A stretch of 64,000 nucleotides of DNA from Branchinecta lynchi. Taxonomy: Eukaryota > Arthropoda > Branchiopoda > Anostraca > Branchinectidae. The stretch covers positions 3,386,561-3,450,560 of the forward strand of contig JAKZAP010000003.1 in NCBI GenBank assembly GCA_023053575.1, written 5' to 3'. A program made the translations under genes and the position numbers. The first letter of the stretch is position 1, and the number at the start of each line of letters is the position of its first letter. The notes beneath the pieces were generated by a model. That model was given only the letters and a program-made list of their open reading frames with translations. It was not told the origin of the DNA and made no database searches. Shown here piece by piece: positions 1,640 through 15,953 of this stretch.

Positions 1640-2195
1640 ATGCTCTTTCAAACCTGCTCTCAAAGTTTTGAAAGATCTTTTCCAAAAATAAAAAAATCGT
1701 TAGTCAGAACCAATTTTCATTTGATTTTCAAGCCTTTTTGATTGAAAAGATATTTACCACTTGATTATCGTTTTCCAGACCTGTTAGTGAACTTTCAACT
1801 AGAACTCTGCTATTATACTTTTTATTATTATTTATTATTTTATTATTTTATTTCTTCAACGACCAACAAGGGCCATACACACAAAAATAACGACAACAAC
1901 AACATAAAAGCAAAAACAACAGCAAAGAATTAACTCTCTGCCGGGACCGCATAAAGCACATGTGTCCACTCCATACGTGTTCCACATATTCTTTCAGCAG
2001 AAAATAGGTGAGAACGTCCCTGATAATGGGAATTTTGCACTACACTTCAGTTTGAAAAATGAATCCCTGCTCATTAACTAATGGATCTGTTATACTATAT
2101 ATGTGTGATGTAAGCTGATAATGAAGTGAGGGCGGACAAACAGAGACTAATCCGCTTGGAGGACTGATATTTCACTTCTGTGTCAAGTAGACGAA
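1640..2195. other. AT-rich spacer, nothing recognised
   Basis: The block holds an AT-rich stretch (1800-1860) and a CAA/ACA-rich stretch (1880-1930). No feature is supported. Confidence 0.4.
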
Positions 2196-2619
2196 CTTTA
2201 AAGTTTAACTGAAAATGCATTACTTTGTTGCTCCACTATTTGCGAACAATTGATTACTGGATTTTCCCTGTCGGATTCTTTGTACCTATCTGCGCTTGCA
2301 CCTGTACAGACGGAAAATGACAAAAGGGATCAACTGGGGTGAAACTGAAAATGAAGTGATTGCCATTCGTCCAAATACATTTGGGCCACGGTATTCACCA
2401 ACCTCACCACTGCGGCTCTGAAAGCCGCGGTTGTATTGATATTCAAATTTTCCGCGTCATAGTAGAACTTTCCGTTGTGAGGACGGCCGTAGAGATATTG
2501 AAAATCACTACTAGGGCATTATAGTGAAAAATAAAAGAATCGCTTAACACAATCCAAATAATTCGGTCTGTTCAGTTAAAGGATACGAAGATAAGGTTGT
2601 TTTTTAGTAAAACTTTAAG
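2196..2619 (+). mobile_element. MITE family B, copy 1 (diverged)
   Basis: The left end reads CTTTAAAGTTTAACTGAAA and the right end AGTAAAACTTTAAGG, which are imperfect terminal inverted repeats. Interior blocks match 35811-36259: the GTTGCTCCA segment, the CAAATTTTC..GTCATAGT segment and the TCCAAATAAT segment. It has no coding capacity. The superfamily is not assigned. Confidence 0.6.
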
Positions 2620-3483
2620 GACTTTTTTCCATCCGTAAAACGCGAAAAAAAAACATAAGGTCGAGTTTTCCGTTGGAAATCGAAGATGATGCACTTGATG
2701 TAAGGATTTATCTTATTCTTGTCATTGAAAGTACACAAATTGCATGTCTTGAGATATGAGACTCAATCAAGCAGTCAATTTGATTTTCAATCCTAATAGC
2801 AGTAGGCTACCACGGGCGGGAATTAGAAAAATAAACACTCTCTAAAAATAAAATAAAACACAAACTAACAAACAATAATAAAATACGAACATAAATCATG
2901 AACAGTTAAAATATTTAGTGAAGTTCCGAAACCACGGATTTAAACAGCGGAAATTAAAACTGTTCTTTAAGGAGTTTGCGGTTAACTGATATCCATTTTG
3001 ACTCCCTGGCGTGCCGTTATGAGAATCATTAATAAATATATGTTTTCCAAAAGTGGTGAAAAAATTAATAGAGATTCATTCTTGTTGTTTTGGCACGCAA
3101 AATTTTGTTCGGAGTAAAAGTTAAAATTGGCAGGTTGCAATACAATAACAAAAATAGCTAACAGGTAGGCAGGGCCCGGATTCCAGGGGTGACATTTTTC
3201 ACGACATCTGATAATTTTGTCCTGTGTGTTATATCACCAAATTACTCAGTATTTCATGATTGTCACATCAAAAATGACAAAAACGCCGAATTTTCAAATA
3301 TTTCGGGCGGGTTTGCCACAGTTTCTTCTTTTGTTGATTTTTGGCTGATTTTTTTTTAAGAACGGGTGTCTTTTTGTGTCTGGCGAGGCAACTCTTCATG
3401 TAGGACTTTTATAGAGCTTTGTCGGCAAATTCAAAAGTTCGATTTTCACTGCTTATATAGGGTACGTTCTGACATTTTACTAA
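2620..3483. other. no gene recognised
   Basis: AT-rich spacer with scattered homopolymers and no supported coding block, RNA gene or shared repeat. Confidence 0.4.
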
Positions 3484-3788
3484 GGTCTTGTTCCACCCTA
3501 CTTACCATAATTACTACGCAGGACGTCACGTATCCTGGGTTCTTGGCGCCCAGGCTGGAACACATTTTTCTATTTTCGGGGAAATACCTTGCGACGGGCT
3601 AATCTGGCCAATCATTTTACAGAGATTCGTGGTTACCATGCTAACTACGATCCCGAGTATGCTAAGCAAGTAGTTACTATTAGTTAGTATTTGGAAAAGG
3701 TTGGAACGGTCAGCCTAGTAACTTTCTACGAGGTTGAAACGAAAATAGTAACTAATGGTTACTGTTGTTAGAAGGGTGGAACACGCTC
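3484..3788 (+). mobile_element. Harbinger-like MITE family H, copy 1
   Basis: This 305-bp element ends in GGTCTTGTTCCACCCTA on the left and GGGTGGAACACGCTC on the right. It is flanked by the 3-bp direct repeat TAA (3481-3483 and 3789-3791). Internal marks are GTAACTACGCATGACGTCA-like and TAACTAATAGTTACTAT-like palindromes shared with the copies at 28826, 40549 and 58638. A 3-bp TWA target duplication is the habit of the PIF/Harbinger superfamily. It carries no transposase. Orientation is opposite to the copy at 58638. Confidence 0.75.
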
Positions 3789-3950
3789 TAACAGTCGCTA
3801 AGATCTGCTATAGTTCTCAAAACATGCCACTATACAAAATGTTCTATCCTTTCCTAATAATTACTACCGGTAACGTTTTTAACCACCATATCCCGGGGAA
3901 TGGCAGAGGGCGGGGATTTAAAAACCTGGGCTTGAATTTGAAAAATAAGA

Positions 3951-3956
3951 AGCATG
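3951..3956. repeat. left target-site duplication of the 12-kb palindrome
   Basis: The hexamer AGCATG lies directly outside the left arm and recurs directly outside the right arm (15948-15953). The identity extends two more bases (AG) because the element itself begins with AG, so an 8-bp duplication with asymmetric ends is also possible. Confidence 0.75.
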
Positions 3957-4839
3957 AGTAGATTATAGGCGCTAAGATACGGGCACATTTCCCTATGTCC
4001 ATCCGTCCGTCTGTTACCAAGCCAAGGTGCTTCCCTATCCCTGACCCTCCAACCATAGCCCCGGCTGGGCACACGCGGGATCCGGCCGCCTCCGTCCGTG
4101 CGGTGGTGGTCGCGAATTCGCCAAACACATTTTCCAGGCGGGACGGGTGACCTCCGGGCGAGAACGCCGCACGCGGAATCCGGCAGCCTCCGCCCGAGCG
4201 CGCGGTAGTCCGGATTTCCGCCGCGAAACCGCACGGGATTGGCTGTGAGGAGTGTTTGAAGGAAACTCCTATGATGAGTGCTTTAAGGAGATCCCTATGA
4301 TGAGTGCTTTAAGGAGATCATATAATGTGTGCTGTCAGTAGTTTTTTATGAATGGTAGTTGTTTACCGATTTGGATGTTGACATTGTTAATCGTTCGCTG
4401 GGATTCGCAATTTATCCGTGGAAATGACGTAATGTTTGGACATGCATGCGTAATCAGATAGGCTACCCATATTGCTAGAGGGGGTCTAGCAAGGTAAAGA
4501 CAGTAAGGGGATCTGAAAGAGACACCCAGTGAAAATACAGATTTTAGTTTCATCAGTGAGTTTAGGATAGGAACTATGTCCTAAGGGCTTGAGGGTTTAC
4601 AAAAAGGAATTTTGAAATTATAATTTTAAGCCTACAGATAGGCTATGCAAACAAGAAACTTAAAAATAAAGCTGTTTGCGGTCAACATCATTCAAGCAGG
4701 TGCCAAGGATTACAGTGAATGTGTTTAGGGCATAGACTTGTTTACCGGGAGAGCAATAATTACCCTCCCCACCCACTTTCCTACTATCTCTATCATACCA
4801 ACCATCCCTATCTCCATTATAGACACGTACCTAAATGAG

Positions 4840-6260
4840 TAGATTGCTTGGGTTTTCCCCAGACACATCCATAAATAGAGAGCTAAAAATAGAACAAGTG
4901 GGTTTTTCCCAAACATACCCAGGAAATGAGGTGGGAAACAAACACGTTAAGGCAAGTTCAAGAGATGACGCAATAAGTGGGGGAGCGTACCGAGTTATAA
5001 ATAGATTTTCTGGGGGGTTTCCCCAAACCTATCCGGAAAATTAGGGGCTGAAATAAACACGTTCAGACAAGCTAAAAAGATGACGCAATAAGGAGGGGGA
5101 GCGTCAACCAATCAGAAGGTCAGTTAGAAACAGATTTTTTGGGTTTTCCCCAAACAGTTGAAATGTCTTTTTGGGTCGGGTCAAATATATTAAGGTGCTT
5201 TATAGGCTACATTTAAAAGTCTTTGTTTAAATCAATAAATGAACAAGCAATTGAGTCTGGCGATTTAGTGATATTTGGAGAACTTTAAACCAGAATAATA
5301 TAGAACATGTGGGTTTTCTTCATACATGTTCGGAAAATTAGGGGTGGAATAAACAAACCGCACGCGATTGGATGTGAGGAGTGCTTTAAGGTAGCATCCA
5401 TGACGACTGGTTGAAGAAGATCGCTGTGGGCTATGAAGAATGTTTTAAGAGGCAACCTTTGATGAGAATTTTTGTATGAAGTGGTAATTGTTCACCGATT
5501 TGGATCTTGACAATGTTAATCATTAGCTAGGATTTCGCAATTTATCCGTGGGAGATTATATAATGTGTGGACATCCGTGCTTAATAACATAGTCTACCTG
5601 TATTGCTAGAGAGAGGGGGGGGGGGGGCTAGCAAGGTATAGCCAGTAAAGGGCTACGCTCCTATCCTGTTTGTTAGTCGTAACTCTCTCATATCAGTTCA
5701 ACACCACACGGAATATCCATTGCACAATGATGCAAGATGTAGAACATATTAGTTTTATAGGAGATTGAAATATCTACACTTACCCTTTAGTCAGTTATTG
5801 ACGGACCCATAAATAGGAAGCCATAAATAGGTTGTCTGGGTTTTCTCCAAACCTATCCATAACTAGGAAGCTAAAAATAGAACATCAGGGTTTTCCCCAA
5901 ACATGGCCAGAAAATCAGGTGTGAAATAAACATGTTCAGACAAGTTCAAGAGATGATGCAATAAGTGGAGGAGCGTAGCGAGTAATAAAGATATGTTCTG
6001 AGGATTTTGCCAGGCAGATCGGGAAAAGAGCTAAAAATAGAACATCTGGGTTTTCCCCCGACCCGTAGTAAAAATAAACAGGGCCACACATTCAGGCAAG
6101 TTCAAAAGATGACGCAACAAGGAGGAAATGTCAAACAATCGGAATGTGAGCTATAAATAGGTTGTCTGGTTTTTTTCCCACAGAAGCCAGTTAATAAATA
6201 GAACATCTGGGCTCGAACATGTCCGGAAATAAACAGACGTAATCAAGTTCAACGAGATGA
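4840..6260 (+). repeat. tandem array of about 50-180-bp units carrying GGGTTTTCCCC
   Basis: A core close to GGGTTTTCCCCAAAC recurs near 4851, 4901, 5015, 5140, 5311, 5838, 5889, 6048 and 6168. Many copies sit next to AAATAGAACAT or ATAAATAG and are followed by CCGGAAAATTAGG. A second module, GATGACGCAATAAG, recurs near 4965, 5080 and 6108, with a GATGATGCAAT variant at 5957 and 6255. The cores resemble NF-kappaB-type and bZIP-type sites, but that role is inference. Confidence 0.75.
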
Positions 6261-6297
6261 TGCAATGAGGGGTGAGCAGCAACAAGTATAGCCTAGA

Positions 6298-6800
6298 CGA
6301 AAACAGATCTAGTATACCAAAGACACCTATACTTGACTAGTAGACTACCTCCCTTGTTTTAAGTCCCTCCACCATGACAACCCAACAGCACCAACACAAA
6401 ATCTATCCAGAGATGTATTTTCCCATCGTCCGACAACCGTAGGCTCAACTACTCTCAGTTGTTTGAAAATCTCTATGTCTCACTAATAAGGGTTGTTGTG
6501 AACCGATGAGGGGGTGTAGACTTTAAATGCATAAGATATACCTTCTGGATGTTATTAGACGAAAACAGATCTAGTATACATAGCACACCTGTACTGGACT
6601 AGGAGGACTGTTTCACTGATGTAGGTCCCTCACCCACACACTACCAACGCGGAACCTATTCAGAGATGTGTTTTTTCCAACGTTCGACAACCATAGGCTC
6701 GACAACTGTCGATTTCCATGTAAATCTCTATGCTTCGGTAATGAGGATAGTTTTGAACCAATGAGGGAGCGCAGACTTTAAATACAAAAGGTATACCTTT
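6298..6800 (+). repeat. direct duplication, unit about 250 bp
   Basis: Two units start with ACGAAAACAGATCTAGTATA (near 6298 and 6557) and end in TTTAAATRCAWAAG followed by GTATACCTT. Each unit carries an inverted pair, CAGAGATGT and AAATCTCTATG, around the CGACAACC..TAGGCTC segment. Confidence 0.75.
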
Positions 6801-7579
6801 TCGGACGTCATGAAATACTGTCCCAACTTACGATACTTACTGAGAGGATGCTACTGTCCACTTCCGATACTTACCGATCGATACTATCCCCGCTCATTTC
6901 CAGTACTCAGGTAAGCATAGACATGTATACGAGCTCAAATAACATTCATACAAGTCTATGAAAACATGCAAAAGTAGATTTCTTATCTCCTGACGGACCA
7001 AAACCCATCCATTCTTTCTTGCATACAGAAGGGTGTCACACTCTCATTCCTGTCGCTTATATTTATGACATGTAGAAATATCAGGAAAGTATGCAATCGG
7101 GCGATAGGTTAATTATTTGCTTTTTCTTTATGTTAAATTTACCTTCGGTGGGCAAGCCTAAACCAGTTGAAAGATGAATATTATATCCCTTTGAACAGCC
7201 TAGACCTGTCCCCAGATATAGTTACAACAAAACAGACCTGTCCCTTTAGCTTAGTGACTCATGATTGTTGACAAAAAGCTGGTCAATCTCATTGTTGCAT
7301 AGCATGAATTCACCAAAGACCACGTGTTTATTTTTTATCCTGACAGATCCATTAATTTTTATGAAACTTGCAGTCCTTGGGACAATGGATCCTTCTTTTC
7401 GAGGATTTGTGATTTGAGTGCGGTTGGTGGGCTGGATGGTCAAAGTATGTTATGAACGACTGATTTCAATTCGAGTACCAGTTGACTGTTCATAAAGACT
7501 ATATGTCTGATACAAATATTTGAAGATGACAACAAAAATGCATCATCCTTGAGGTGAGTACTTGAAATTCTTCGGAAGT

Positions 7580-9938
7580 ATTGGAACATGCATAGCCATG
7601 TTTCATGGGTCACGAATCACGATGCCCACACTCCATAGTTCTTATGTTCATCCTGATGAGTTTCACATTCCCAAGGTTCGAAAAATATTTCCATCCCTTG
7701 ATGATGGGTTTCTACAACAAATTCGCTAATGTCTTGTCACATGGATCACTGGAATGCTGTGTTTTGATCGCTGACTACGAAAGTTGAATCACCTTGGGAC
7801 TCCGTTTTCATGGTTCAGTCGGCCTTTCAACAGTTTCAACTTATTTTGTTCTGTGCTATCCAATTTGTGGCATAAAGTCCACAGTCGTGTACACTTGCCA
7901 CGCTCTTCTTGGGACATACCAGGGTTTAACAGTTTCCGACAAGCTGATTGGCCGAAAACAGCGATATCTTTATTTTATCCTGTAGATAACAGGAAATTCA
8001 ACCCGCTATTGTGTACACTTGCCACGTTTTTTCTTGAGACGCACCTTGATTTCAATGTTTCCGACAAGATCATTGGTCGAAAATTCCGCTATGATTTTAT
8101 GCATACTGTGGATTACAAACAAGAGACAATGGATTTAGAGAGCTGAATGTCTATACTCCATAATGTATCAAAGTAACCTAAATAGTTTCCCTTTTCATAC
8201 TTAGGAACAGATTTCATTCAAACGAGGGTGGGTTCATACGGCTCGTCTGCTAAGGGTTTGCCAGAATGTTCACTGGAATGATGTGTTTTGTCACTAACTC
8301 TGAACGTGGAACCCTAATCAGGCTCATTTGTATGACTCAGTTGTCCTTTCACCTAGTTTTATTCTAAATTATCCAGTTTGTATCATAAAACCCACAGATG
8401 TGTAGGCTTGCTACGCTCTGCTTGAGACGTACCTGGATTTTAATGTTTCTGACAACGTCATTGGCCGAAAACAATTTGGATTACAAACAAGAGACCATTG
8501 ATTTAGAGAGCTGAATGTATATACTCCTTAATTTATCGAATTATAACTGACTAGTTTCACTTTTTACAGATTTCTTTCAACCGAGGATGGATTTCTACGG
8601 TTCGTTTTGCTAGTGGTCCGACAAAATGTTCAGTAAAATGCTCTGAACATGGAATCATTGTGAGACTAATTTTTATGATTCAGTTGTCCTTTCATCTAGT
8701 TTTGTTCTGATATGTCCAATTTGTAGGATAAAGTCCACAATTTTGTCCACTTGCAACGATCTTCCTGGGTCATACCTGGACAAAGACTGGAAAACAACGC
8801 TAGATTTTTTGTATACTGCAGATATCAAACAAGAGACCATGGATTTAGAGTGATAAGTGACTATGTTCATTATTTTTATCAAATTAACCTGACTAGTTTC
8901 AAGCTTCGGAACCGAATTTAGTCAACCGAGGGTTGGTTTCTATGGTCATACTGTCTAAAATTTTAGTTTTGTCATAGTCTTCGATAGACGTGGCACAGTC
9001 CCGCTCACTATTTCCAGCGATCTCATTGGTCGAAAATAACGATATCTTTATTTAATCCTGTGGGTGTCAGGATTCTGAAGTTCAAACTCTTATTCCTTTT
9101 GGCGTAGTCTTCTTGAAACATGGTTCAGTCCGTTCACTATTTCCACTGATTCTATTGCTGGATTTCTTGATTTTATCCACTTTGACTGGGAATTGTGTAC
9201 AATTGCCACGTTTTTCTTGAGACGTACCTTTAATTTCATTGTTTCCAACAAGCTCATTGGTCAGAAACTACGATTTTTTGTGGTATTGTGAATTACAAAC
9301 AAGAAACCATGTATTTAAAGGGTTGAATGTCTAACTACTTAATTTAAAACATTAACCTGACTAGTTTCAATCTTTGGAAGCGATTTCATTCATCCTGGGT
9401 GGGTTTCTACGTTACATACTATTACATTTTTCGATTTTGTCATAGTCTTCGATAGACGTGGCAGAGTCACGCTCAGTATTTCCAGCGATCTCATCTGTCG
9501 AAAATAACAAAATCTTTTTCTTATCCTGTGGGTGACAAGTTTCTAAAGTCAAAACTTTTTCTTTTTGCTGTAGTCTTCTTGAGACGTAGTTCAGTCCCGT
9601 TCACTATTTTCTGGCGATCTTATTCGTCGATATGCTTATTTTTTCCGCTGTGACGGTGAACTATGTACAACTGTCACATTTTTCTTGAGACATACCTTGA
9701 TTTCATTGTTTCCGAGAAGCTCATTGGTCAACAATACCGATGCAATTATTTGTGTTCTTGTGGATAACAAACAAGAGACCATGGGTTTAGAGGGGTGAAT
9801 GTCTATACGACTTAATTTACCAAATGAATATGACTAATTTAAAGATTCGGAAAAGATTTCAGTCAACCGAGGTTGAGATTCTACGGTACATTTGCAAAAG
9901 GTTTGACACATGAATCAGTGGAATGCTGTGTACTGATC
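7580..9938 (+). repeat. diverged tandem array of 360-450-bp units
   Basis: About six units share ordered landmarks: CATTGGTCGAAAA, CTTGAGACGTACCTTGATTT, ACAAACAAGAGACCATGG, AGCTGAATGTCTATAC, CCTGACTAGTTTCA and CAACCGAGGGTGGGTTTCTA. The short open frames inside are not conserved between units, so this is satellite-like DNA, not a gene. Confidence 0.75.
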
Positions 9939-9965
9939 ACTGATCTGAACGTGGAACAATATTGA
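9939..9965. other. 27-nt asymmetric centre of the palindrome
   Basis: This unpaired spacer separates the arms. The left arm ends in GATC and the right arm begins in GATC. Compared with an equivalent unit near 8640 (GAACATGGAATCATTGTGAGA), the spacer reads as a plain continuation of the left-arm repeat. So the left arm runs on to about 9967 and then turns back onto itself. Confidence 0.85.
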
Positions 9966-12324
9966 GATCAGTACACAGCATTCCACTGATTCATGTGTCA
10001 AACCTTTTGCAAATGTACCGTAGAATCTCAACCTCGGTTGACTGAAATCTTTTCCGAATCTTTAAATTAGTCATATTCATTTGGTAAATTAAGTCGTATA
10101 GACATTCACCCCTCTAAACCCATGGTCTCTTGTTTGTTATCCACAAGAACACAAATAATTGCATCGGTATTGTTGACCAATGAGCTTCTCGGAAACAATG
10201 AAATCAAGGTATGTCTCAAGAAAAATGTGACAGTTGTACATAGTTCACCGTCACAGCGGAAAAAATAAGCATATCGACGAATAAGATCGCCAGAAAATAG
10301 TGAACGGGACTGAACTACGTCTCAAGAAGACTACAGCAAAAAGAAAAAGTTTTGACTTTAGAAACTTGTCACCCACAGGATAAGAAAAAGATTTTGTTAT
10401 TTTCGACAGATGAGATCGCTGGAAATACTGAGCGTGACTCTGCCACGTCTATCGAAGACTATGACAAAATCGAAAAATGTAATAGTATGTAACGTAGAAA
10501 CCCACCCAGGATGAATGAAATCGCTTCCAAAGATTGAAACTAGTCAGGTTAATGTTTTAAATTAAGTAGTTAGACATTCAACCCTTTAAATACATGGTTT
10601 CTTGTTTGTAATTCACAATACCACAAAAAATCGTAGTTTCTGACCAATGAGCTTGTTGGAAACAATGAAATTAAAGGTACGTCTCAAGAAAAACGTGGCA
10701 ATTGTACACAATTCCCAGTCAAAGTGGATAAAATCAAGAAATCCAGCAATAGAATCAGTGGAAATAGTGAACGGACTGAACCATGTTTCAAGAAGACTAC
10801 GCCAAAAGGAATAAGAGTTTGAACTTCAGAATCCTGACACCCACAGGATTAAATAAAGATATCGTTATTTTCGACCAATGAGATCGCTGGAAATAGTGAG
10901 CGGGACTGTGCCACGTCTATCGAAGACTATGACAAAACTAAAATTTTAGACAGTATGACCATAGAAACCAACCCTCGGTTGACTAAATTCGGTTCCGAAG
11001 CTTGAAACTAGTCAGGTTAATTTGATAAAAATAATGAACATAGTCACTTATCACTCTAAATCCATGGTCTCTTGTTTGATATCTGCAGTATACAAAAAAT
11101 CTAGCGTTGTTTTCCAGTCTTTGTCCAGGTATGACCCAGGAAGATCGTTGCAAGTGGACAAAATTGTGGACTTTATCCTACAAATTGGACATATCAGAAC
11201 AAAACTAGATGAAAGGACAACTGAATCATAAAAATTAGTCTCACAATGATTCCATGTTCAGAGCATTTTACTGAACATTTTGTCGGACCACTAGCAAAAC
11301 GAACCGTAGAAATCCATCCTCGGTTGAAAGAAATCTGTAAAAAGTGAAACTAGTCAGTTATAATTCGATAAATTAAGGAGTATATACATTCAGCTCTCTA
11401 AATCAATGGTCTCTTGTTTGTAATCCAAATTGTTTTCGGCCAATGACGTTGTCAGAAACATTAAAATCCAGGTACGTCTCAAGCAGAGCGTAGCAAGCCT
11501 ACACATCTGTGGGTTTTATGATACAAACTGGATAATTTAGAATAAAACTAGGTGAAAGGACAACTGAGTCATACAAATGAGCCTGATTAGGGTTCCACGT
11601 TCAGAGTTAGTGACAAAACACATCATTCCAGTGAACATTCTGGCAAACCCTTAGCAGACGAGCCGTATGAACCCACCCTCGTTTGAATGAAATCTGTTCC
11701 TAAGTATGAAAAGGGAAACTATTTAGGTTACTTTGATACATTATGGAGTATAGACATTCAGCTCTCTAAATCCATTGTCTCTTGTTTGTAATCCACAGTA
11801 TGCATAAAATCATAGCGGAATTTTCGACCAATGATCTTGTCGGAAACATTGAAATCAAGGTGCGTCTCAAGAAAAAACGTGGCAAGTGTACACAATAGCG
11901 GGTTGAATTTCCTGTTATCTACAGGATAAAATAAAGATATCGCTGTTTTCGGCCAATCAGCTTGTCGGAAACTGTTAAACCCTGGTATGTCCCAAGAAGA
12001 GCGTGGCAAGTGTACACGACTGTGGACTTTATGCCACAAATTGGATAGCACAGAACAAAATAAGTTGAAACTGTTGAAAGGCCGACTGAACCATGAAAAC
12101 GGAGTCCCAAGGTGATTCAACTTTCGTAGTCAGCGATCAAAACACAGCATTCCAGTGATCCATGTGACAAGACATTAGCAAATTTGTTGTAGAAACCCAT
12201 CATCAAGGGATGGAAATATTTTTCGAACCTTGGGAATGTGAAACTCATCAGGATGAACATAAGAACTATGGAGTGTGGGCATCGTGATTCGTGACCCATG
12301 AAACATGGCTATGCATGTTCCAAT
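9966..12324 (-). repeat. mirror copy of the 360-450-bp array
   Basis: Reverse complement of 7580-9938; the same landmarks occur in reverse order. Confidence 0.85.
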
Positions 12325-13103
12325 ACTTCCGAAGAATTTCAAGTACTCACCTCAAGGATGATGCATTTTTGTTGTCATCTTCAAATATTTGTATCAGACA
12401 TATAGTCTTTATGAACAGTCAACTGGTACTCGAATTGAAATCAGTCGTTCATAACATACTTTGACCATCCAGCCCACCAACCGCACTCAAATCACAAATC
12501 CTCGAAAAGAAGGATCCATTGTCCCAAGGACTGCAAGTTTCATAAAAATTAATGGATCTGTCAGGATAAAAAATAAACACGTGGTCTTTGGTGAATTCAT
12601 GCTATGCAACAATGAGATTGACCAGCTTTTTGTCAACAATCATGAGTCACTAAGCTAAAGGGACAGGTCTGTTTTGTTGTAACTATATCTGGGGACAGGT
12701 CTAGGCTGTTCAAAGGGATATAATATTCATCTTTCAACTGGTTTAGGCTTGCCCACCGAAGGTAAATTTAACATAAAGAAAAAGCAAATAATTAACCTAT
12801 CGCCCGATTGCATACTTTCCTGATATTTCTACATGTCATAAATATAAGCGACAGGAATGAGAGTGTGACACCCTTCTGTATGCAAGAAAGAATGGATGGG
12901 TTTTGGTCCGTCAGGAGATAAGAAATCTACTTTTGCATGTTTTCATAGACTTGTATGAATGTTATTTGAGCTCGTATACATGTCTATGCTTACCTGAGTA
13001 CTGGAAATGAGCGGGGATAGTATCGATCGGTAAGTATCGGAAGTGGACAGTAGCATCCTCTCAGTAAGTATCGTAAGTTGGGACAGTATTTCATGACGTC
13101 CGA

Positions 13104-13606
13104 AAAGGTATACCTTTTGTATTTAAAGTCTGCGCTCCCTCATTGGTTCAAAACTATCCTCATTACCGAAGCATAGAGATTTACATGGAAATCGACAGTT
13201 GTCGAGCCTATGGTTGTCGAACGTTGGAAAAAACACATCTCTGAATAGGTTCCGCGTTGGTAGTGTGTGGGTGAGGGACCTACATCAGTGAAACAGTCCT
13301 CCTAGTCCAGTACAGGTGTGCTATGTATACTAGATCTGTTTTCGTCTAATAACATCCAGAAGGTATATCTTATGCATTTAAAGTCTACACCCCCTCATCG
13401 GTTCACAACAACCCTTATTAGTGAGACATAGAGATTTTCAAACAACTGAGAGTAGTTGAGCCTACGGTTGTCGGACGATGGGAAAATACATCTCTGGATA
13501 GATTTTGTGTTGGTGCTGTTGGGTTGTCATGGTGGAGGGACTTAAAACAAGGGAGGTAGTCTACTAGTCAAGTATAGGTGTCTTTGGTATACTAGATCTG
13601 TTTTCG
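13104..13606 (-). repeat. mirror copy of the 250-bp duplication
   Basis: Reverse complement of 6298-6800, recognised by TATACTAGATCTGTTTTCGT at 13326 and 13590. Confidence 0.85.
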
Positions 13607-13643
13607 TCTAGGCTATACTTGTTGCTGCTCACCCCTCATTGCA

Positions 13644-15064
13644 TCATCTCGTTGAACTTGATTACGTCTGTTTATTTCCGGACATGTTCGAGCCCAGATG
13701 TTCTATTTATTAACTGGCTTCTGTGGGAAAAAAACCAGACAACCTATTTATAGCTCACATTCCGATTGTTTGACATTTCCTCCTTGTTGCGTCATCTTTT
13801 GAACTTGCCTGAATGTGTGGCCCTGTTTATTTTTACTACGGGTCGGGGGAAAACCCAGATGTTCTATTTTTAGCTCTTTTCCCGATCTGCCTGGCAAAAT
13901 CCTCAGAACATATCTTTATTACTCGCTACGCTCCTCCACTTATTGCATCATCTCTTGAACTTGTCTGAACATGTTTATTTCACACCTGATTTTCTGGCCA
14001 TGTTTGGGGAAAACCCTGATGTTCTATTTTTAGCTTCCTAGTTATGAATAGGTTTGGAGAAAACCCAGACAACCTATTTATGGCTTCCTATTTATGGGTC
14101 CGTCAATAACTGACTAAAGGGTAAGTGTAGATATTTCAATCTCCTATAAAACTAATATGTTCTACATCTTGCATCATTGTGCAATGGATATTCCGTGTGG
14201 TGTTGAACTGATATGAGAGAGTTACGACTAACAAACAGGATAGGAGCGTAGCCCTTTACTGGCTATACCTTGCTAGCCCCCCCCCCCCCTCTCTCTAGCA
14301 ATACAGGTAGACTATGTTATTAAGCACGGATGTCCACACATTATATAATCTCCCACGGATAAATTGCGAAATCCTAGCTAATGATTAACATTGTCAAGAT
14401 CCAAATCGGTGAACAATTACCACTTCATACAAAAATTCTCATCAAAGGTTGCCTCTTAAAACATTCTTCATAGCCCACAGCGATCTTCTTCAACCAGTCG
14501 TCATGGATGCTACCTTAAAGCACTCCTCACATCCAATCGCGTGCGGTTTGTTTATTCCACCCCTAATTTTCCGAACATGTATGAAGAAAACCCACATGTT
14601 CTATATTATTCTGGTTTAAAGTTCTCCAAATATCACTAAATCGCCAGACTCAATTGCTTGTTCATTTATTGATTTAAACAAAGACTTTTAAATGTAGCCT
14701 ATAAAGCACCTTAATATATTTGACCCGACCCAAAAAGACATTTCAACTGTTTGGGGAAAACCCAAAAAATCTGTTTCTAACTGACCTTCTGATTGGTTGA
14801 CGCTCCCCCTCCTTATTGCGTCATCTTTTTAGCTTGTCTGAACGTGTTTATTTCAGCCCCTAATTTTCCGGATAGGTTTGGGGAAACCCCCCAGAAAATC
14901 TATTTATAACTCGGTACGCTCCCCCACTTATTGCGTCATCTCTTGAACTTGCCTTAACGTGTTTGTTTCCCACCTCATTTCCTGGGTATGTTTGGGAAAA
15001 ACCCACTTGTTCTATTTTTAGCTCTCTATTTATGGATGTGTCTGGGGAAAACCCAAGCAATCTA
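13644..15064 (-). repeat. mirror copy of the GGGTTTTCCCC array
   Basis: Exact reverse complement of 4840-6260, with the cores appearing as GGGGAAAACCC. Confidence 0.85.
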
Positions 15065-15947
15065 CTCATTTAGGTACGTGTCTATAATGGAGATAGGGAT
15101 GGTTGGTATGATAGAGATAGTAGGAAAGTGGGTGGGGAGGGTAATTATTGCTCTCCCGGTAAACAAGTCTATGCCCTAAACACATTCACTGTAATCCTTG
15201 GCACCTGCTTGAATGATGTTGACCGCAAACAGCTTTATTTTTAAGTTTCTTGTTTGCATAGCCTATCTGTAGGCTTAAAATTATAATTTCAAAATTCCTT
15301 TTTGTAAACCCTCAAGCCCTTAGGACATAGTTCCTATCCTAAACTCACTGATGAAACTAAAATCTGTATTTTCACTGGGTGTCTCTTTCAGATCCCCTTA
15401 CTGTCTTTACCTTGCTAGACCCCCTCTAGCAATATGGGTAGCCTATCTGATTACGCATGCATGTCCAAACATTACGTCATTTCCACGGATAAATTGCGAA
15501 TCCCAGCGAACGATTAACAATGTCAACATCCAAATCGGTAAACAACTACCATTCATAAAAAACTACTGACAGCACACATTATATGATCTCCTTAAAGCAC
15601 TCATCATAGGGATCTCCTTAAAGCACTCATCATAGGAGTTTCCTTCAAACACTCCTCACAGCCAATCCCGTGCGGTTTCGCGGCGGAAATCCGGACTACC
15701 GCGCGCTCGGGCGGAGGCTGCCGGATTCCGCGTGCGGCGTTCTCGCCCGGAGGTCACCCGTCCCGCCTGGAAAATGTGTTTGGCGAATTCGCGACCACCA
15801 CCGCACGGACGGAGGCGGCCGGATCCCGCGTGTGCCCAGCCGGGGCTATGGTTGGAGGGTCAGGGATAGGGAAGCACCTTGGCTTGGTAACAGACGGACG
15901 GATGGACATAGGGAAATGTGCCCGTATCTTAGCGCCTATAATCTACT

Positions 15948-15953
15948 AGCATG
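15948..15953. repeat. right target-site duplication of the 12-kb palindrome
   Basis: AGCATG, identical to 3951-3956. It is followed by unrelated flank (AGCTGGAGAAC), so the inverted symmetry stops exactly here. Confidence 0.75.

Follow-up and report, generated by a model that had tools for sequence, protein, structure and literature searches.

A gene-less palindromic element with Polinton ends in Branchinecta lynchi, probably a snap-back satellite

The palindrome, its ends and its contents

The DNA analysed here is a 64,000-nucleotide stretch (the window) of the Branchinecta lynchi genome (576 Mb), on the contig labelled C15; elements elsewhere in the genome are named by their contigs. It contains a 12-kb insertion that is flanked by a 6-bp repeat, carries the ends of a Maverick/Polinton element and consists of two arms that mirror each other around a short spacer. 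We paired each position p with 19904 − p across the window and found that 5,980 of 5,982 arm positions match without any indel, the mismatches being 5857/14047 and 7724/12180. Outside both ends, 15 of 17 tested positions do not pair, and a mirror shifted by 1–40 bases in either direction gives at most 29% pairing. The first-pass annotation had described a perfect 12-kb palindrome: the palindrome is real, and ‘perfect’ is slightly too strong in view of the two mismatches and a 27-bp spacer that is, as a whole, non-palindromic. The flanking AGCATG and the termini (AGTAGATT/AATCTACT) proved to be as it had described them. The presence of AGTAGATT at both ends of the element makes these terminal inverted repeats of the 5′-AG, (AGT)n type.

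The element was also said to lack genes, and this holds as far as tested. None of 46 stop-to-stop frames (44 frames of at least 50 residues in the left arm and 2 crossing its outer edge) matches Pfam at E 0.05, and the longest stop-free frame in the arm has 123 residues, compared with a median of 109 in 200 mononucleotide shuffles. Protein-primed PolB, rve integrase, ATPase and capsid protein were not found in the element, and Rfam gave no match at gathering scores. From the terminus inward, each arm starts with a terminal block, followed by repeated modules and a duplicated unit, and ends in an array of diverged repeats that enters the centre (Table 1). TATAAAT, GGGTTTTC and GATGACGCAA occur exclusively on the inward strand in the modules; CCAATC is on both strands of the arm (one inward, three outward). 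The spacer extends the array of the left arm better than that of the right (local scores of 72/43/75 and 43/35/64, respectively, for three units), so the left arm is probably the original one. In the inner arm (7001–9952), TpG/CpA is raised to 1.19–1.35 and CpG falls to 0.59 in 7001–8000, compared with a CpG of 0.83–1.06 in the flanking kilobases, possibly a trace of methylation and deamination.

Table 1 Features of the palindromic element (window coordinates)
Feature	Position	Strand	Basis
Left target-site duplication, AGCATG	3951..3956	+	Read directly
Left arm, 5,982 bp, probably ancestral	3957..9938	+	Mirror pairing; spacer continuation scores
Terminal Polinton sequence, AGTAGATTATAGG..., common to coding elements	3957..4313	+	84% identity to both C16 ends
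Repeated promoter-like modules (TATAAAT, GGGTTTTCCC, GATGACGCAA inward), putative promoter activity	4840..6174	+	Self-similarity
Duplicated non-coding unit of about 250 bp, copies diverged (75%)	6294..6799	+	Self-similarity
Diverged repeat array up to the centre, non-coding, TpG/CpA-rich	7673..9952	+	Self-similarity; dinucleotide composition
27-bp spacer (putative fold-back loop)	9939..9965		Mirror pairing; reverse complement is the centre of the C4 twin
Right arm, mirror of the left, 2 mismatches	9966..15947	-	Mirror pairing
Mirror copy of the promoter-like modules	13730..15064	-	Mirror of 4840-6174 about sum 19904
Right target-site duplication, AGCATG	15948..15953	+	Read directly

The rest of the window to the right (17304–63892) holds numerous short dispersed repeats and, among 72 translated frames, formin domains (FH2 in two frames and FH3 in one).

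Relatives in the same genome

The first-pass annotation had proposed searching the genome for the terminal sequence and for coding elements with the same end and 6-bp duplications, and both exist. The first 344 bp of the element have at least 89 genome matches (several per element), which include inverted pairs 11–15 kb apart and many single ends. We examined 11 regions and then four more (C15:6.66 Mb, C11 and two on C17), picked mainly for strong, paired ends. One of these, C16 (C16:1207311–1222585), is a 15.3-kb coding Polinton with 422-bp terminal repeats. It encodes a PolB (PF03175, E 2.6e-21), an integrase (rve and chromodomain) and an A32/FtsK-like ATPase; the PolB and chromodomain scores are over the Pfam cut-offs and the rve and A32 scores under them. 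Its 422-residue protein was modelled at modest confidence (predicted local distance difference test (pLDDT) 67.8, predicted template modelling (pTM) score 0.65), and the best structural match of this model in the PDB is the mavirus major capsid protein (E 9.8e-15, template modelling (TM) score about 0.5), so that the protein is modelled as a double jelly roll capsid protein. Seven of nine database relatives of this protein (L009:4691–5956) are from Artemia franciscana, with identities of up to 59–60%. Searches of IMG/VR with the end motif or PolB found no relatives, and PDB searches by sequence gave no matches.

The second coding element, C17a (C17:18840501–18853316), has 1.6-kb terminal repeats and an open PolB frame of 1,342 residues, and both of its ends match the window arm at 83–84% over 950 bp; no match to the integrase or capsid protein of C16 was found in it. 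Homologues of the window modules sit immediately upstream of polB in both C16 and C17a. Coding relatives have ends in common with the window element and carry PolB and rve integrase, and open PolB frames of the same subfamily exist.

Eight insertions in this end family are palindromic: the window element, C4b, C7, C12, C2, C21a, C4a and C21b. BLAST against the reverse strand shows a palindrome that continues across the centre in C7 (13.5 kb), C12 (13.2 kb) and C2 (11.0 kb), and C21a, C4a and C21b have arms of 5,796 bp, 5,839 bp and about 4,775 bp, respectively, around asymmetric centres. C4b is a twin of the window element, with the reverse complement of the window spacer as its centre. A flip-flop inversion of the centre in this twin was considered and rejected, as the inverted spacer is the same element in the opposite orientation. 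The right arm of C4b can be read for its first 680 bp and then enters a gap of 100 N (C4:22631125–22631224, L026), which may mean that palindromes are under-assembled and hence undercounted. Among the remaining members, C14b is only 2.3 kb long and has repeats of 674 bp; C14a, C11 and C17b are either broken or of complex structure. At C14:3988233/3988234 (L027/L028), two diverged Polinton ends stand head to head with zero bases between them.

A perfect 6-bp target duplication, read by eye, flanks all 12 elements for which both ends were located (the window element, C21b, C7, C12, C21a, C4a, C16, C2, C15b, C14b, C17a and C6); C4b, C14a, C11, C17b, C3 and a half-element at C15:6664193 fall outside this count. 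The hexamers of C7 and C16 require one additional AGT at one end. This fits replication that starts inside the terminal AGT repeat and then jumps back, as discussed for Mavericks (PMC8097293). Ten of 11 measured elements are 11.0–15.3 kb long (mean 12.9, standard deviation 1.1, with C14b omitted from the mean and C4b and C6 not in the set). In a sample largely chosen for paired ends, this range gives no more than a hint of a length limit, for example that of a capsid.

Palindromes also occur in a second Polinton lineage. A genome search with the C16 PolB gave at least 42 matches (37 of 1,386 candidates scored). Among the 26 loci listed with a PolB match of at least 900 residues, five have two converging copies: C2:17.8 Mb (the C2 element itself), C6, C3, C2:15.57 Mb and C158. 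Our DNA-level check of the pairs other than C2 covered C6 and C3, whose PolB proteins are 46% identical to that of C16. The C6 element (C6:3873550–3887607) is 14.1 kb long, with 6.7-kb arms that differ by 6 mismatches and 9 gap positions, ends AGTAGTTATG and the duplication AGCCCG. The C3 arms of about 5.0 kb, of which the left seems truncated, differ by 1 mismatch and 50 gap positions. At C3:3.403–3.415 Mb (L037/L038) and C6:3.873–3.888 Mb (L039/L040), each arm contains a complete PolB frame of 1,203 residues. Palindromes in this lineage indicate that the process that makes them is recurrent and not bound to one family.

Fold-back junctions, arm identity and broken centres

The clearest view of how such a palindrome arises comes from C2 and its coding relative C16. 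On the polB side, the two are 99.9% identical for 3,520 bp. Their match as a whole spans 5.5 kb at 99.0% identity and begins 33 bp inside the C2 end and 75 bp inside the C16 end. Going inward, C2 equals C16 base for base through CTGTCCATT; from there C16 continues in polB and C2 turns, with CCATT complementary to AATGG over a 29-nt loop inside the gene. C2 consequently has a pair of polB copies that converge and are truncated at about residue 1,100 of 1,241. At the level of sequence, this junction shows the product expected of a snap-back relative to C16, and we infer that a protein-primed polymerase made it. Loops at other turns are 27 nt in the window element, 22 nt in C3 and about 10 nt in C7.

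C15b, which is 13.8 kb long in all, is built differently: it unites, head to head, a fold-back of the capsid/integrase end with a C7-type palindrome that has lost its centre, under a single duplication (CTTATT). The simplest reading is that defective genomes were joined before integration. For the C7-type palindromes themselves, we considered L030 (C15:6663193–6673192) as a coding parent and rejected it, as the viral frames beyond the fold point belong to another endogenous double-jelly-roll virus. The locus represents a deletion beginning at the palindrome centre, with the right side of the half-palindrome lost and copies of the other virus on both sides of what remains (L030:1–1000, L030:7120–10000 and L031:1–196). 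These copies are 98.6% identical over 806 bp and include a double-jelly-roll protein (PF21738, E 6.6e-25). The C7-type palindromes encode a 357-residue protein for which we found no homologues. Strong purifying selection on this protein was considered and rejected, with ratios of nonsynonymous to synonymous substitution rates (dN/dS) of 0.69–1.13 on 17–21 changes relative to C16; between C2 and C16 the ratio is 0.20 on 7 changes.

Arms within a copy are nearly identical: differences number 2/5982 in the window element, 2/6735 in C7, 1/5796 in C21a, 3/5839 in C4a and 0/5488 in C2, and C12 has 0/5959 as far as an indel close to the centre. Copies compared with each other show 114/5596 (C12 and C7), 102/5500 (C21a and C7) and 14/5800 (C4a and C7) substitutions. 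As arms differ at 0–3 positions while most compared copies are about 2% apart, arms must be equalised or remade in each cycle. The first-pass annotation had attributed arm identity to recent origin or gene conversion, and the comparison among copies refines that proposal. C7 and C12 have a common turn point at different loci and unlike loop bases, which implies a palindromic ancestor that diverged with its arms kept equal, unless the same turn recurred.

Breaks are found at the centres. With C7 (13,480 bp, centre at 6740.5) as the reference, the missing segments are 6735–7982 in C21a, 6739–10192 in C21b, 6503–7643 in C4a and 1774–9224 in C15b, and the half-palindrome at C15:6664193 stops at the centre and runs into the other virus. 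In three of the five cases, one edge of the deletion is no more than about 6 bases from the centre; the nearest endpoint is about 240 bp away in C4a and about 2.5 kb away in C15b. Endpoints near the centre would be expected if a hairpin tip is cut.

Origin and meaning of the element

Shared ends, target duplications in 12 of 12 elements and the other palindromes support the view of the first-pass annotation that this is a gene-less, fully palindromic Maverick/Polinton relative inserted as a unit; its membership in a family and a fold-back origin are additions to that view. PolB is absent from the window element, present in C16 and C17a and truncated in C2, which makes the element a derivative and not an autonomous member. 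It has the layout of a snap-back genome, with one terminus duplicated as inverted arms around a short loop, and the target duplications, as read in the assembly, show that it integrated as a unit. We consider it probable that the element is a non-autonomous, heritable snap-back satellite of endogenous Polintons that is replicated and integrated in trans, and we read it as an old satellite lineage that has kept the ends and the polB-type upstream modules. Protein-primed, strand-displacing synthesis would start from one Polinton terminus, and the growing 3′ end would snap back to pair with a short inverted match some tens of nucleotides upstream and copy its own strand as far as the 5′ terminus. 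The resulting hairpin would become a palindrome with two identical Polinton ends. Such a palindrome would have the required end signals, so that the PolB and integrase of a coding Polinton could copy and insert it with a 6-bp duplication; we infer this helper role in trans, as well as the hairpin intermediates. Displaced strands would fold into hairpins, and mismatch repair or renewed fold-back would keep the arms identical while copies diverge. Genes would have been lost in the window lineage, leaving only the ends and promoter-like modules recognisable.

Several observations weigh against this account. No parent was found for the inner arm of the window element (arm positions 2338–5982, window 6294–9938, with 6180–7600 outside the search), so that the fold-back junction is shown for its sister C2 only and complementarity at the window turn is not measurable. 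The array region occurs at full length elsewhere only in the C4 twin and otherwise as fragments on C4, C6 and C20, and no coding relatives of it were found. C15b, compared with a C16-like genome to which it is about 95% identical, turns with about 3 nt of clear homology and a loop as long as about 4.5 kb, so short loops are not found at all turns; in C6, about 600 bp of the centre do not pair. Break repair or end-joining fold-back would leave similar junctions, and this analysis of sequence yielded no observation of an extrachromosomal form, of helper activity or of expression.

The C15b turn and the large centre of C6 would fit an origin outside the chromosome in which broken or displaced strands were united by end joining or single-strand annealing, with no polymerase snap-back during protein-primed synthesis. 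C15b, uniting two defective genomes under one duplication, demonstrates that joining events occur, and end joining is what the authors of a study of adeno-associated virus (AAV) snap-back genomes propose (PMC8235507). We nevertheless regard this route as unlikely, as the 22–29-nt loops of C2, the window element and C3 are more readily explained by intrastrand priming from a growing 3′ end than by random joining. The palindrome might instead have been made in place, from an ordinary inserted Polinton that later suffered a break in its right half and used the left half as repair template by way of the terminal repeats (by gap repair or break-induced copying), with gene conversion equalising the arms. 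Known repair pathways would also keep the AGCATG duplication and equal arms, and the centre deletions point to breakage and repair in these palindromes. However, the window element and its C4 twin agree in arm and spacer although they occupy different loci and have different flanks, and so the window element appears to have moved as a ready palindrome. Their arms differ by one substitution and one indel; at site 3768, the left arm of the twin has T, as does the window arm that shares its orientation, which weakly suggests, from one site, transfer of a ready-made palindrome. Given also the common turn point and differing loop bases of C7 and C12, an origin in place for all copies would require the identical turn repeatedly. 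It is already disfavoured for families with shared centres, and we hold it to be quite improbable here.

Two further explanations have almost no probability in our judgement. Long arms with internal repeats recall fold-back transposons, and an independent family of the FB/TU/Galileo kind, with its own transposase, could look superficially like a Polinton. The ends, however, are those of elements that encode PolB, integrase and capsid protein, which opposes this idea unless the coding elements borrowed them; the duplications are 6 bp long, C2 itself contains polB, and the enzymes found in coding relatives are PolB and rve integrase instead of a transposase of such a family. That the palindrome is an assembly artefact, for example from a chimeric self-complementary long read, is just as hard to credit. 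Palindromes are difficult to assemble, and the C4 twin enters its run of N inside the right arm, but a self-complementary read would also mirror the flank, whereas pairing ends at both termini beside the matching duplication and the structure is seen again at further loci, beside different hexamers.

The element resembles FB, TU, Galileo and Tetris in its very long inverted arms and the repeats inside them, but these fold-back transposons have other transposases and other duplication lengths. With Mavericks/Polintons, the element shares 5′-AG(T) ends and 6-bp duplications, and its sister copies encode PolB, an integrase with rve and chromodomain, an ATPase and a putative double jelly roll capsid protein; it differs in being gene-less and a complete palindrome. 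Fold-back products of replication have parallels in other DNA viruses. AAV is hairpin-primed, and a protein-primed polymerase, as in defective adenovirus or phage phi29-type genomes with duplicated ends, would give the same product. The 5′ and 3′ AAV snap-back genomes have one genome end in self-complementary form; these are found in subgenomic particles, whereas the elements here are integrated, inherited and multi-copy in lineages that encode viral-type PolB (AAV as described in PMC8235507). Intact vertebrate Mavericks, as described in PMC8097293, have eight conserved genes, terminal inverted repeats, a length of about 17 kb and the end motif (AGT)2. No palindromic Polinton was found in the titles and abstract openings of part of the matching Polinton literature. 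Maverick/Polinton virus particles had not yet been observed when the available abstracts were published, and Polinton replication is therefore known mostly through sequence.

The modules face the centre in both arms, so that transcripts would read into their own complement. Double-stranded RNA has been proposed for the 5′ AAV snap-back genome, which keeps a promoter (PMC8235507). By analogy, and speculatively, the window element may make double-stranded RNA against its helper. A bolder picture, to which we give a small chance, would make palindromic satellites a regular and inherited component of Polinton biology in this animal: repeatedly formed from at least two lineages, held near capsid-filling length even when gene-less, and transcribed into kilobase hairpin RNA that matches the helper, making them natural RNA-interference loci. 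The palindromes are in any case a natural example of kilobase inverted repeats in which arms stay identical and centres break. Fold-back junctions fixed in a genome are replication fossils that show which end was being copied and where the turn was made, and they bear on the protein-primed mechanism. The findings point to defective, satellite-like genomes in Polintons, of the sort that accompany other DNA viruses, with transmission in this case through the germ line.

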